This document shows positions 23,623 to 29,371 of a stretch of DNA of 64,000 nt, piece after piece. The notes beneath the pieces are model-generated. The model was not told the origin of the DNA. It saw nothing but the letters and a program-made list of their open reading frames with translations, and made no database searches. Both the position numbers and the translations under genes were made by a program. This stretch comes from Mitsuokella multacida DSM 20544. GTDB lineage: Bacteria > Bacillota > Negativicutes > Selenomonadales > Selenomonadaceae. The stretch is from NCBI RefSeq assembly GCF_000155955.1, contig NZ_GG697141.2, positions 124,001 through 188,000 of the forward strand, written 5' to 3'. Position 1 is the stretch's first letter; each line of letters opens with the position of its first letter.

Positions 23623-25911
23623 ATGTATATCTCATTACATAACCATAGTGACGGCAGTCTACTCGATGGCTACCAGACTGTACAGGAAATGGTAGCCCGT
23701 GCAAAGTCATTAGGTATGCCTGCAATCTCTCTGACTGACCATGGAACAATGCGGAATACCATTCGTTTCTACGAGGAGTGCCAGAAAAACGACATCAAGC
23801 CTATTGTTGGCTGCGAGTTCTACTTCTGTCCCGATGTGAATATCAGGGATAAGTCACTGACACACCATTTGGTCATCCTTGCAATGAACGATGAAGGATA
23901 CATGAACCTCAAGAAACTCGATACGTTTGCGTACAATGAGGACTCGTACTACTACAAGCCCAGAATTGACTGGGAAGCCCTGCGGGAACATAGTGATGGA
24001 CTCATTTGTCTGTCTGCATGCATGGCGTCCATTGTCAACACAGAGAATGGCGAGGAGTGGTTCGAGAAATACAAAGAGCTGTTTGGAGATCGTTTCTATG
24101 CAGAGATTCAGCCGCTCAACCTCGAGAAACAGTGGGAGTACAACGACAAGGTCATTGGATTGGCACGGAAATACGATGTTCCCCTTGTTGTAACAACAGA
24201 TGCTCATTACTCTATCCCAGAGGATAAGGTATATCATAGCCATTGGATTCGTATCAATGGCAACCAGTATCACGATGACGAGAACTACATCTGGTCAGAT
24301 GACGAGATACGGAGCACAAAGTGGATTCCACAGGATGTTATTGATGAGTGCATCGAGAACACAGAACACATTGCGAGCCTTTGCAACGTCACAATCCCCG
24401 ACTCTGGTAGTCACTATCCAAAGTATCCCTGTTCCAATCCTAAGGAAAAGGTAAGGGAAATCTGTAGGAGGCACTGGAAAGAACTTGTGCCGAAAGGGAA
24501 ATACAAGGAATACGCTGAACGCTTTGAGATGGAGATGAAAGACCTTGAAGCAACGAATTACCTTGAGTATCTACTGATTATCTGGTCTGTATTGAGTTGG
24601 TGTAAAGAACAGCGTATTCCGTTGGGAGAAGGCAGGGGTTGCTCGATTTCTGGAACCAAGGTTCTTATGTGGAATGGCACAGTGAAAAACATAGAAGATA
24701 TTGTTGTTGGCGACAAGGTTATCTCTCATACTGGTCAGATTCGTGAAGTAACCAATACGTTCAAGTATGAGGTCAATGAGCCAATGATTCAGGTGACGGT
24801 TGAGAAGAGAAATCCAATGACGTTCACTTGTGACCATAAAATTCTCGTATTCAGAGGATCACGTTGCCACAAGAAAGAATCAACTGGGTATAAGTATTGC
24901 AGACCTACATGTTCACAGTCTTGTCGAAAGTATGGTTCATACGAATGGATTCCAATGGATGAAGTAGAGAAGGATGACCTCGTATGCTTCCCGCAGGTTC
25001 GTTTACCTAAACCCCAGCAGACAAGAATAGATGTGAAGGAACTATTCCAAGATGTCATTGAGAAGGATGGATACGTTAATGTATTTAGTAATGATGCGCA
25101 GTGGGAAAAAGGAAAAATTCCTCGATATATCGACATTACTCCAGACCTTTGCAGGCTCATTGGTTATTTCATTGGTAACGGATGGGCAACAAAGGGCACG
25201 CACAAAGATGGGGTTTCGGGAGGATATAAACTCGGCATTGCTTTTCCGACAATTCATATGGAATACGTAGAGGATTGTCGCAGATTACTCAAGCAGATAT
25301 TTGATGCAGATACCTCGGTTAAACCAAACAAAAGGAATACTTGTGTCCAGATACATTGTTATAGAAGTATCATCGCCATGCTTTTTGCCAAGTTGTGCGG
25401 CGTCCATGCAATCAACAAGCACATCCCAGATATTCTAATGGTTGATAATCCATCATGGACAGTACATTTGCTTGAAGGATTGATGAGAACCGATGGTTCT
25501 GTGGCGGGAGGTAGAACAACATACGATTCTATTTCGTACAACCTTGTCTGTCAAATCAAAACTCTGTGGTCGTACCTGGGGAGAGACGCAGTGATTAGAA
25601 TTAGGAACGTAACGCATAAAAACTGGCATACGTCTTATAAACTTGTCCTGCACTCGACGTCGAGATGGCACGGAGACAACATGTTCCACACCGAGGTGAA
25701 GGATGTAAAGCATATTGATAATTTTAAAGGATATGTTTATGACTTCACTACAGATGTAGACCATAGCTACATTGCAAACAATACGGTTGTCCATAATAGT
25801 TCAGCCGGATGTCTCGTTGGCTATCTCATGGGTATCCATAAGATTGACCCGATAAAGTACCACACGGAGTTCTTTCGGTTTTGCAATAGAGAGAGAAGAA
25901 GTCCAGCAGAT
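23623..25911 (+). CDS. dnaE: DNA polymerase III alpha subunit (DnaE-type), exon 1, with intein 1
   Basis: First part of the phage replicative polymerase. Residues 1-250 form the PHP domain with intact-looking metal ligands (LHNHSDGS, LTDHGTM, GCEFYF, TTDAHY). The palm begins after it. Residues 340-725 are an intein in GRG/SSAG. The remaining extein continues SSAGCLVGYLMGIHKIDPIK to FCNRERRSPAD. The frame then hits a stop at 25918. The natural continuation, VDSDLS, is found only at 26894, which completes the catalytic PDxDxD-type motif as ADVDSD. Exon 1 contributes 377 extein residues. Splicing of an RNA intron is therefore required to make the enzyme. AAGGAG precedes the ATG. Confidence 0.93.
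24640..25797 (+). mobile_element. Intein 1 (386 aa) with LAGLIDADG homing endonuclease
   Basis: Begins with Cys (CSISGTKVLMWNG; block A) and ends VVHN followed by Ser as first C-extein residue, the canonical splice junctions. Block B is FTCDHKILV (the TxxH motif). Two LAGLIDADG-like motifs are present: LCRLIGYFIGNGW and LLEGLMRTDGSV. The C-terminal blocks read YVYDFTTDVDHSYIANN. Removing it restores GRGSSAG, the nucleotide-binding turn conserved in DnaE proteins. All splicing residues and the endonuclease appear intact. Confidence 0.93.
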
Positions 25912-26893
25912 AAATATTAATGTCGAGCTGCTTGGAAACAAGTGGTGTTAATTCTCGTGAACGCTTAATTCAGCGGTGTGGGGGAACTCCCTGCTAACGG
26001 TGGAACTCCTTATGATTAAGGACAATACCGTGCTAAGTAATTTCGCAACCTTGTCATCTACAGAAAGGATGATGAGGATATATAGAAATATTCCTGGGTA
26101 TGACGGGAAATACATCATGTATGATAATGGAGATGTATGGAATGCCATATCCCAAAAGAGAATCTTACCCAAGGTAAGAGGTAAGATGAAATTGCCTAGT
26201 TATCGGCTTTATGACGCGAACGGTGTTGGGCATGTGAAATCAGTTGAAACATGGTATTCGGTTGTATTTCCAGAAAAAGGACATGAACGAAAAAATGGAT
26301 TCATGGATATACCAGGGTATCAAGGGCTATATGGTATCTCTACTAGTGGAGAAATATGGTCTTACAGTAAAAAGAGAGTCCTAATATCAAGTCCAACAAC
26401 AACATGTCCTTACCTCTGCATCAAGTTATCGCTCAACAATAAAGTACATTACGAGTTAGTTCATAGGTTAGTTGCTATGACATATATTCCTAACCCAGAT
26501 AACCTCCCAGAGGTTGACCACATAGATAGGAATATTATGAATAACAATGTTAGTAACCTAAGATGGATTAATCGAATTGGCAATCTAAAGAATAGCTCAT
26601 GCGGGTTAGTTCGAAACTTTCGAGAGTGCTCATTGTTTTACAATGGAACGTTCGTCGGAAGGTATCAATCAATATGTGAAGCAAGTAGGGAAGGACATAA
26701 GCTGTTCGGAGCTTCATATAGTGGGCTTAATAGGAATCTTAAAAGTAAAGGCTGCGAAATTAAAAGTGTAACGACTAGTCCGTTGGGACGTAGGGTGGGG
26801 TAATGAATTACCACTCGAAGTGCGAGATACCTAAACCAGAAATGGCATGGTAAAGAGATAGTCTAATCCCTGTGGTAACATAGGGTAGTAATG
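25912..26893 (+). ncRNA. Group I-like self-splicing intron (982 nt) within dnaE
   Basis: Exon 1 ends in U (GAT, 25911) and the intron ends in G (26893), as group I introns require; splicing joins GAT to GTTGAT and restores the polymerase motif. Exon bases GCAG (25906-25909) can pair with CTGC in the intron at about 25927-25930, with CC/GG next to it, giving a P1-like helix. Near the 3' end is GAGATAGTCT (26854-26863), like the conserved P7/S region, followed by a CCCTGTGG...CATAGGG hairpin. ACGGT/ACCGT and CCTT/AAGG stems at about 25988-26035 fit P4-P6. A full fold was not computed. An HNH gene fills the middle. Confidence 0.85.
26072..26803 (+). CDS. Intron-encoded HNH homing endonuclease (NUMOD4-type)
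   Basis: 243 residues from ATG 26072, just after AGAAAGG. Two NUMOD4-like modules (IYRNIPGYDGKYIMYDNGDV and FMDIPGYQGLYGISTSGEIW) precede an HNH core: HRLVAMTYIPNPDN, VDHIDRNIMNNNVSNLRW. The C-terminus resembles a NUMOD1 DNA-binding helix (GRYQSICEASREGH). Such enzymes cut intronless alleles and spread the intron. The reading frame is intact, so homing may still work. Confidence 0.9.
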   Translation: MRIYRNIPGYDGKYIMYDNGDVWNAISQKRILPKVRGKMKLPSYRLYDANGVGHVKSVETWYSVVFPEKGHERKNGFMDIPGYQGLYGISTSGEIWSYSKKRVLISSPTTTCPYLCIKLSLNNKVHYELVHRLVAMTYIPNPDNLPEVDHIDRNIMNNNVSNLRWINRIGNLKNSSCGLVRNFRECSLFYNGTFVGRYQSICEASREGHKLFGASYSGLNRNLKSKGCEIKSVTTSPLGRRVG

Positions 26894-29371
26894 GTTGATA
26901 GTGATCTCTCTACATTAAACCGTGGACGTGTCATTGAACACGTCAAAGAGATGTATGGTAACGTCTGCAAGGTACAGACACTGGGATACACGAAAGACCC
27001 TGATAAACCAAGCGCAGGCAAAGAAGCTGTACTAAAAGCATGGCAGGCACTGTTCAACAAGTACAAAGACAATGCCCCTATGATTCCTTGTGAAGAACAG
27101 GGTGGCCTTATGATTGACCCGTCATGGGAATACAATCCGAAGTTCAAGACTGAGGCATCAAAATACGTCGAGTCTTCCATTGATGATTTACAGGACGCAC
27201 CCATTTCACTCAACGAGGAACAGAAAGCAGAACTCATTGATGTGGCAAAACATTTCTGTGGACGCATCGACAAGATTGGTGTTCATGCATCGGCTGTCCT
27301 TGTCACTCCAGATGACCTCGTGAACTATACACCAGTAGAAGGATGCTATTCCAATGATACATCTACGAAGAAGCGCGAATACATCCGTACTGCATGTTAT
27401 TCATTCCATGAGTTAGAGCAGCGTGGCAATCTCAAACTGGATTTGCTTGGACTCAACACGTTAGACCTCATCGACAAGTGCATGAAGTACATCGGCAATG
27501 ACATGAACCTCGATGACATCCCGATGGATGACGTAAAGGCGTATGAGATGTATTCCAACGGCAACCTCGATGGAGTGTTCCAGATGGAGTCTCCTGGTAT
27601 GCGCAAGGTTGCCAAGGAGCTACACGTGTCATGCTTTGATGACGTTGCGGCACTCGTCGCTTTGTACCGGCCAGGCCCTCTTGACTCAGGGATGATGCAA
27701 CAGTACATCGACGGAAAGAATGGTGCTGCTGTAGATTACCTCTGTGATGCATATAAAGAGGTCACGAAGAATACATTCGGTGTCATTGTCTATCAGGAGC
27801 AGTGTATGAAGCTCGCTATGAAGATGGCAGGGTACTCACTGGGCGAAGCGGATATGCTACGTAAGGTCATTGGACGCAAGGAGATGACAAAGATTGATGC
27901 TGCGGTCAAAGAGTTCATCACTCGCTGCATGAAGCATGGGTATTCCCATGAGGTTGCAGAGAAGGTTGGTATGCAAATCAAGGCGGCGGGCCGATACCTG
28001 TTCAACAAATGCCTGAGTGGCCGTGAGTGTGTTGTTATGCATACAGGAGCAAGGACGAAGCGGTCTATCCGTGAGTTGTACAGGTTCTTTCACGATGACA
28101 AGTATAACAAACGCCAGCTTGACCCTTGGAATGTCAATGGCGTCAAGGCGTGTTCGATGGATAACGATGGCAAGATGGTGGAGAACTATATTGTTGACGT
28201 TAGAGAGTCTGGTATCATGCCCGTGTTTATCCTTGTAACAGAGTCTGGAAAACAGGTAAGATGCACGTTGAACCATAAGATTCCAACACCAGATGGAACC
28301 AAGTTGTTGGTGGAGCTGTCCGTTGGGGACTCTGTGTATGTATCTGATGTACTCAATACACACATTGAGAAGGTCTCGGCTATCTCCTATGAGTGCGACG
28401 AGATGTGCTACGACGTTGAGATGGATGACCCATATCACAACTTTGTGACTAGCAATGGTATTGTCGTATGTAACTCCCATTCTGTTGCCTATGGTCGTCT
28501 CTCGTACAAGACGGCGTACCTCAAGGCTCACTACCCTGTACAATTTATGTGCGCTTTGTTAAATACCAAGGATAAGCAAGAGGATATATTGCCGTATGTT
28601 GCCAACTGTAAGGCCATGGGTATCCGTATCCTTCCACCGAGTCTCTTTGAAGGGAACCGTGAGTGGGAGATTGTCGGCAACAATGCAATCCGTGTCGGAC
28701 TCACGTACATCAAGGGTGTTGGCAAGAAACTGGTCACGGAGAAGTACGGTGCGTTCAATGACAGGGAAATGCTTACAACATGGAAGGACATTGTGGCATA
28801 CAATAGCAGCGATGTTGTGAAAAGCCTTATCAGTGCAGGAGCATTGGACTTCCTGAAGAAGTCTCGTGGTTGGATGATGGGCAACCTACTGGAGACTCAG
28901 AGATTCACGAAACGCATGGCGCAGTGCGAGGAGAGGTTCAACTATTATCGTGACCAGTATGATAACGCAACGAATGACAAGGACAAGGCTCGGGCAATCC
29001 GTATGGCGAATCAGTGGAACGACAAGATCAATGCAACGATTCTCCACGAGAAGCCAGAGGTTTCCTTTGATAACGCCGCAGGAGAGATGAAGGTGCTTGG
29101 GTTCTCTTTTTCGAGTCTGCCTGACATCCTCACAGGTATTGCATCGTCTGTCCATGAGATTACAACAAAGAATGGCAACAAGATGGCATTGGTTACGTTC
29201 AAGACCGACTATGGAGACTTCAAGGGTTCCATCGCACCATTCCTGTGGGGACAGGGCAAGACACGGTATGGACGCAGCAAGCTGTTTGTTGTTCAGGGGA
29301 AGACATATGATTTCATGCTGAAGAAGAATGGCCAGTATACGGATATTGTCGATGTAAAGGAAGTGTGCTAA
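26894..29371 (+). CDS. dnaE: DNA polymerase III alpha subunit (DnaE-type), exon 2, with intein 2
   Basis: Continues the polymerase with VDSDLSTLNRGRVIEHVKEM. Palm and fingers motifs follow: the third catalytic Asp in LKLDLLGLNTLD, VALYRPGPLDSGMM, YQEQCMKLAMKMAGYSLG, ADMLRKVIGRK. The FNK/SHSVAYG motif is interrupted by intein 2. The C-terminal part includes helix-hairpin-helix and an OB-fold-like region (KNGNKMALVTFKTDYGDFKG). After removal of the intein, exon 2 gives 670 residues; the mature enzyme is about 1,047 residues, close to normal DnaE length. The ATG at 26891 is the last intron codon and is not a true start. Confidence 0.93.
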   Translation, partial: VDSDLSTLNRGRVIEHVKEMYGNVCKVQTLGYTKDPDKPSAGKEAVLKAWQALFNKYKDNAPMIPCEEQGGLMIDPSWEYNPKFKTEASKYVESSIDDLQDAPISLNEEQKAELIDVAKHFCGRIDKIGVHASAVLVTPDDLVNYTPVEGCYSNDTSTKKREYIRTACYSFHELEQRGNLKLDLLGLNTLDLIDKCMKYIGNDMNLDDIPMDDVKAYEMYSNGNLDGVFQMESPGMRKVAKELHVSCFDDVAALVALYRPGPLDSGMMQQYIDGKNGAAVDYLCDAYKEVTKNTFGVIVYQEQCMKLAMKMAGYSLGEADMLRKVIGRKEMTKIDAAVKEFITRCMKHGYSHEVAEKVGMQIKAAGRYLFNKCLSGRECVVMHTGARTKRSIRELYRFFHDDKYNKRQLDPWNVNGVKACSMDNDGKMVENYIVDVRESGIMPVFILVTESGKQVRCTLNHKIPTPDGTKLLVELSVGDSVYVSDVLNTHIEKVSAISYECDEMCYDVEMDDPYHNFVTSNGIVVCNSHSVAYGRLSYKTAYLKAHYPVQFMCALLNTKDKQEDILPYVANCKAMGIRILPPSLFEGNREWEIVGNNAIRVGLTYIKGVGKKLVTEKYGAFNDREMLTTWKDIVAYNSSDVVKSLISAGALDFLKKSRGWMMGNLLETQRFTKRMAQCEERFNYYRDQYDNATNDKDKARAIRMANQWNDKINATILHEKPEVSFDNAAGEMKVLGFSFSSLPDILTGIASSVHEITTKNGNKMALVTFKTDYGDFKGSIAPFLWGQGKTRYGRSKLFVVQGKTYDFMLKKNGQYTDIVDVKEVC
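28010..28474 (+). mobile_element. Intein 2, mini-intein (155 aa) without endonuclease
   Basis: Starts Cys (CLSGRECVVMHTG) and ends VVCN before Ser. Block B reads RCTLNHKIPT (TxxH). The end region MCYDVEMDDPYHNFVTSNG is a typical intein block F/G. No LAGLIDADG or HNH region is present. The penultimate residue is Cys and not the usual His. Removal restores FNKSHSVAYG, a motif present in nearly all DnaE proteins. Confidence 0.92.

Follow-up and report, generated by a model that had tools for sequence, protein, structure and literature searches.

A probable mobile group IA2 intron in the catalytic aspartate motif of a prophage dnaE gene

The dnaE gene of a siphophage-like prophage in Mitsuokella multacida DSM 20544 is interrupted by a 982-nt insert, located between the codons that align with D401 and F402 of the E. 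coli protein. Its anatomy makes it very probably a mobile self-splicing group IA2 intron, one that parts the D401 codon from that of D403 and is spread by the HNH enzyme encoded within it. D401 and D403, together with D555, are the catalytic residues in E. coli. All positions are those of the window, the whole 64,000-nucleotide stretch of DNA that was analysed (contig NZ_GG697141.2, positions 124,001 to 188,000).

The gene, which encodes DNA polymerase III alpha, lies at 23623-29371 on the forward strand near the prophage end. A tape measure and tail proteins are encoded upstream and an excisionase-like protein directly downstream; the genes beyond that, judged by eye, are host-like. IMG/VR holds an identical sequence, a 77,028-base contig with dnaE at its end. 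The parts of the gene are as follows.

23623-25911 (+), DnaE exon 1, with the PHP domain and the start of the polymerase; contains intein 1 (Pfam PHP 2.5e-43, DNA_pol3_alpha 1.6e-19)
24640-25797 (+), intein 1, 386 aa, LAGLIDADG, at GRG^SSAG (Pfam Intein_splicing at 6.8e-11 and LAGLIDADG_3 at 7.7e-9, each passing its cut-off; empty site in L003)
25912-26893 (+), putative group IA2 intron of 982 nt, in phase 0, parting the D401-equivalent codon from that of V (empty allele L003; Rfam 34.9 bits; helices)
26069-26803 (+), NUMOD4-HNH homing endonuclease ORF, encoding 244 aa if read from this ATG, a candidate start (Pfam, PHROG_59)
26894-29371 (+), DnaE exon 2, with the remaining palm, the fingers and the HHH; contains intein 2 (Pfam DNA_pol3_finger 1.1e-49; PHROG_405 7.7e-135)
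28010-28474 (+), intein 2, a 155-aa mini-intein at FNK^SHS (Pfam Intein_splicing 1.4e-5, below cut-off; absent in L005 and L042)

Joined, the two exons form an open frame of 1588 residues, or 1047 without both inteins. To yield its enzyme, this single replicase gene would need splicing once as RNA and twice as protein. The termini of intein 2 fit (C...N, with S at +1), and its penultimate residue is Cys rather than His. A 66% identical phage DnaE (L006/L043) has an intein-like, endonuclease-bearing insert at a third site, KTG^CHAS.

Both junctions of the intron are fixed by the phage contig L003, which has an empty site and reads ...CCTGCGGAC|GTTGATAGTGAT... uninterrupted, the junction being GCGGAC|GTTGATAGTGAT. 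Excision of exactly 982 nt from the window's gene gives an allele of this L003 type. Exon 1 ends in ...RRSPAD, with the last codon GAT at 25909-25911, and exon 2 starts at 26894 with GTTGATAGTGAT, translated VDSD. An earlier sequence-only reading, which had put a phase 0 intron at 25912-26893 between PAD and VDSD, was exact to the base; the mapping of splice sites that it proposed returns, from the empty allele, the predicted bases and an unchanged motif. L003 lacks the intron and intein 1 and has intein 2, and over a 372-residue exon-2 segment its DnaE is 92% identical in protein to that of the window.

In the phmmer alignment to E. coli, S3 of exon 2 stands opposite V404, so that D2 of exon 2 is D403 and the final residue of exon 1 is D401; the alignment is short and weak here, the motif unmistakable. 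The two aspartates are thus encoded in separate exons, as had been proposed. ADVDSD had also been called equivalent to PDxDxD; its aspartates do align with D401 and D403, but it is not a strict PDxDxD. The aspartate of LKLD, farther along exon 2, aligns with D555 (counted along the printed alignment). All 44 DnaEs of a hand-chosen set, viral and cellular, have the motif's three aspartates, while the 10-residue segment around the motif is of average conservation by identity to the prophage DnaE, 39% of such segments being at least as conserved.

The claim that the host polymerase conserves the site holds for the protein, which has PDIDVD, but not for the DNA; since the latter differs from the phage site at many positions, the host dnaE is no evident target for homing. 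The 21-mer that opens exon 2 is present once in the host genome, within the prophage. An intron at the same position is absent from 60 of 60 phage records spread over the 1030 that match, each alignment running unbroken across the junction. Nor was one seen in the tblastn map of 46 viral loci besides the prophage itself (L036) and L003 (L037), some of these loci being too partial or distant to judge and 22 having a split DnaE gene. A literature search, covering few subscription journals, found no group I intron at this dnaE position.

The exon flanks differ from L003 in an uneven way. The last 19 nt of exon 1 (25893-25911) have 8 mismatches to L003 (binomial p 2e-4), those in the last six codons all silent, and the first 65 nt of exon 2 have none (p 8e-4); both lengths were picked after inspection of the data. 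This asymmetry possibly resembles co-conversion during homing. In more distant relatives the last codon of exon 1 is GAT, as in the window, in L039, L040 and L042, and GAC, as in L003, in L043, and this three-to-one split points to no direction for any co-conversion.

The following RNA elements were located, all on the forward strand, with their basis in brackets.

25905-25929, P1, exon AGC-A-GAU with intron GUC-GA-GCU, with a U25911-G25922 wobble at the 5' splice site (pairing)
25915-25921, P10 strand, 7 bp with exon-2 bases 26894-26900 (pairing)
25953-25959, P3 5' strand UCUCGUG, partner UGCGAGA at 26821-26827 (covariation, 21 distinct related introns)
25997-26031, P4 (25997-26002/26026-26031) and P5 (26007-26012/26017-26022) (minimum-energy fold of the 5' part)
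26038-26762, P6a, a perfect 10-bp stem (26038-26047/26753-26762) with a 705-nt loop (pairing)
26773-26863, P7 (26773-26777/26859-26863, GACUA/UAGUC), enclosing P7.1, GUA, P7.2 and P8 (minimum-energy fold)
26778-26781/26786-26789, P7.1 (minimum-energy fold)
26790-26792, GUA linker between P7.1 and P7.2 (minimum-energy fold)
26793-26798/26811-26816, P7.2 (minimum-energy fold)
26828-26831/26849-26852, P8 (minimum-energy fold)
26868-26885, P9, CCCUGUG/CAUAGGG (minimum-energy fold)
26893, terminal G of the intron, 3' splice site (empty allele)

The insert thus has the P3 and P7 helices, the U-G wobble of P1, a guide sequence, P10 and a terminal G, all of them traits of group I. The strands of P1 and P10 abut on the guide sequence, and 7-mers compatible with them number 104 of 63993 and 64 of 63992, respectively, in the window. 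The 3' part of the intron folds by itself into P7, P7.1, P7.2, P8 and P9; the fold energies are unexceptional (z -1.60 and -1.35), and the P8 stem, at only 4 bp, is no better than in shuffles (p 0.29). P7.1 and P7.2 joined by GUA constitute the IA2 criterion, applied to phage Pf-WMP3 (PMC3428280), and by it the predicted structure is of subgroup IA2.

The check for a group I core by covariance model, suggested with the earlier reading, gives a permissive-search match to Rfam RF00028 at 26704-26885 (34.9 bits, E 6.6e-7), below the gathering score of 50; P1 to P10 are supported by sequence, folding and covariation. That score is a curator's cut-off and not a defining trait. Because the core is split by the 705-nt loop of P6a, the match begins within the ORF. 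It was repeated in a search of the whole genome, and at the gathering threshold the window yields only tRNAs. Other identities considered for the insert were an intein, rejected for its in-frame stops, and a group II intron or IStron, rejected since the permissive search gave no such Rfam match and no transposase was seen in the insert.

Relatives were sought in viral contigs by the 16-nt 3' core of the intron, which occurs in 31 stretches, one of them this prophage; the thirty others (L165-L194) carry the identical core and share with the window's intron the J8/7-P7-P9 sequence, P3, the P7.1/P7.2 layout, additional P3-P4 hairpins and a final ATG. A P8 stem, short in the window, is found in most. 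Unlike the window's intron, none was recognised, by eye, in dnaE; the frames downstream, read by eye without a search, resemble terminase, tape measure, NrdD and others. In 23 of the 30 the P4-P6 motif lies within 200 nt of the 3' core, which leaves these introns without a long ORF there.

Of the 31 loci 27 could be scored for P3 and 21 were distinct; L167, L169, L174 and L188 lack a motif and were left out. The strands were located by fixed motifs and distances, not by pairing. All seven positions pair, with many pair types, in 18 of the 21 distinct introns, the window's included, compared with at most 8 of 21 in 5000 shuffles of partners. The rule in use was written after inspecting strands that a first rule had mis-picked in several loci, under which 12 of 24 helices were full (shuffles at most 7). 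The failures are L168, L175 and L183, that of L175 being a mis-picked 3' strand which scored 7/7 under the earlier rule. An early proposal for P3 had CUCCCUGC, directly 5' of P4, pair with GUAGGG downstream of P7.1; hand comparison with the relatives led to its replacement by the covarying helix. A covariance model built on 19 loci aligned by MAFFT alone had poor structure, missed P7 and was used in no search.

Across 12 sibling loci no intron bearing the 16-mer reached the RF00028 gathering score, the one match there being to a different intron. The window's intron belongs to a widespread phage set, and Rfam's threshold is missed by the 12 loci of the set that were tested. L175 has two different group I introns close together (470-708 and 1016-1173), upstream of the NrdD-like frame. 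The genome G009:C1, from the same family, has group I introns of about 340 nt, nearly equal in score, at 12 scattered places on its chromosome (L207, L210, L212, L213, L214 and seven more), perhaps copies of an IStron-like repeat.

Most of the HNH gene is contained in the P6a loop, from which the ORF continues through the 5' strand of P7 and P7.1 into P7.2. It matches Pfam HNH_3 (27.1 bits) and NUMOD4 (29.2 bits), both above cut-off, and PHROG_59, an HNH endonuclease family (2.5e-31). Relatives in known phages amount to 633 records, all below 60% identity; the search of viral contigs with the HNH protein, which matched only itself, reaches close relatives only, and this accounts for the lone self-match.

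We infer splicing, cleavage, homing and activity of the mature enzyme from the anatomy; the empty allele, junctions, helices, covariation and intact ORFs were observed. A mobile group IA2 intron would have inserted right after the D401 codon, parting D401 from D403. Its RNA would fold into a P3-P9 ribozyme core whose guide sequence, 25915-25929, pairs with both exons through P1 and P10; cuts after U25911 and after G26893 would then join GAT to GTT. Translation of the spliced mRNA and excision of both inteins would give the 1047-residue DnaE, and the HNH endonuclease would act on alleles that lack the intron, L003's for example, cutting them so that the intron is copied in.

It is unlikely that the intron, though real, has decayed and no longer splices, leaving the polymerase gene in effect broken. 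The weak fold z-scores are in keeping with decay, as is the location in a prophage of an element whose splicing is a prediction from sequence, but the core helices, the guide pairings and the terminal G are all intact, and the reading frames of the HNH gene, the exons and the two inteins remain open.

DnaE is divided between genes in a number of phages. In 22 of 48 viral loci (L046-L048, L050-L057, L059-L061, L063-L066, L069, L080-L082) the gene restarts some 56-178 residues before PDxDxD, with a separate first piece farther upstream wherever the sequence extends that far, and Cellulophaga phage phiST (L198) has its DnaE split as gp044/gp045. The break is just beside the intron's spot; among the loci read, no intein was seen there. 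DnaE of this marine type has a further break, at ADY^CFNKSHS, which precedes the intein 2 site by three residues; both halves are present in L050, L061 and L065 and the C-terminal half in L055 and L069. By eye, the separate genes at this break look to carry split-intein-like halves.

The intron might accordingly be thought optional, unspliced RNA giving two proteins and a two-piece polymerase like those natural two-gene DnaEs, broken just upstream of PDxDxD, of the 22 loci and phiST. Exon 2 could start at the intron's last ATG (26891), which is in frame, has AGGG upstream and begins an ORF at 26891-29371. We consider this very unlikely; such a break would part D401 from D403, which the marine split keeps together in the second piece, and introns of this set commonly end in an ATG, irrespective of insertion phase. 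Translation of the unspliced RNA runs into a stop at the intron's third codon (PAD-KY-stop), and the earlier statement that any activity requires precise loss of the intron is a sound inference. A related idea, distinctly doubtful, is that splicing acts as a replicase switch: the unspliced message would yield an N-terminal piece, inactive and ending in PADKY, plus a separate C-terminal piece started by that ATG, and splicing alone would unite the aspartates. On this view, since marine phages split DnaE at the same spot, its invasion by an intron or an endonuclease could be a way in which split polymerases arise. That the splice sites lie elsewhere, with the catalytic motif unsplit, is scarcely credible, as no point in its favour was found and the empty allele and the P1/P10 pairing indicate identical bases.

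The self-splicing intron preferred here would be a clean natural case of why mobile introns persist in catalytic motifs, where deletion must be base-exact, and the 92%-identical intronless allele makes homing specificity and the cost to the polymerase directly testable. The type of intron is well known; its position in a catalytic motif is unusually neat, and the natural empty allele is useful. The polymerase genes that carry the introns of phages SPO1, SP82, Bastille and Pf-WMP3 are of family A. Like the prophage's intron, these lie in a phage replicative polymerase gene and encode an HNH enzyme (I-HmuI, I-HmuII, I-BasI and I-PfoP3I, respectively), and that of Pf-WMP3 also has the IA2 core P7.1-GUA-P7.2 and an ORF running from P6a through P7 (PMC3428280); the prophage's differs in being in DnaE, between two catalytic aspartates. 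Swithers et al. (2009; PMC2814812) report that group I introns and inteins favour conserved sites, from which, they argue, removal must be precise. The phage gene nrdE of SPbeta-c2 likewise combines an intron with an intein (PMC3653736), and with these two precedents placement in a conserved motif is expected; the prophage differs from SPbeta in the gene concerned, dnaE, and in having one intron and two inteins.
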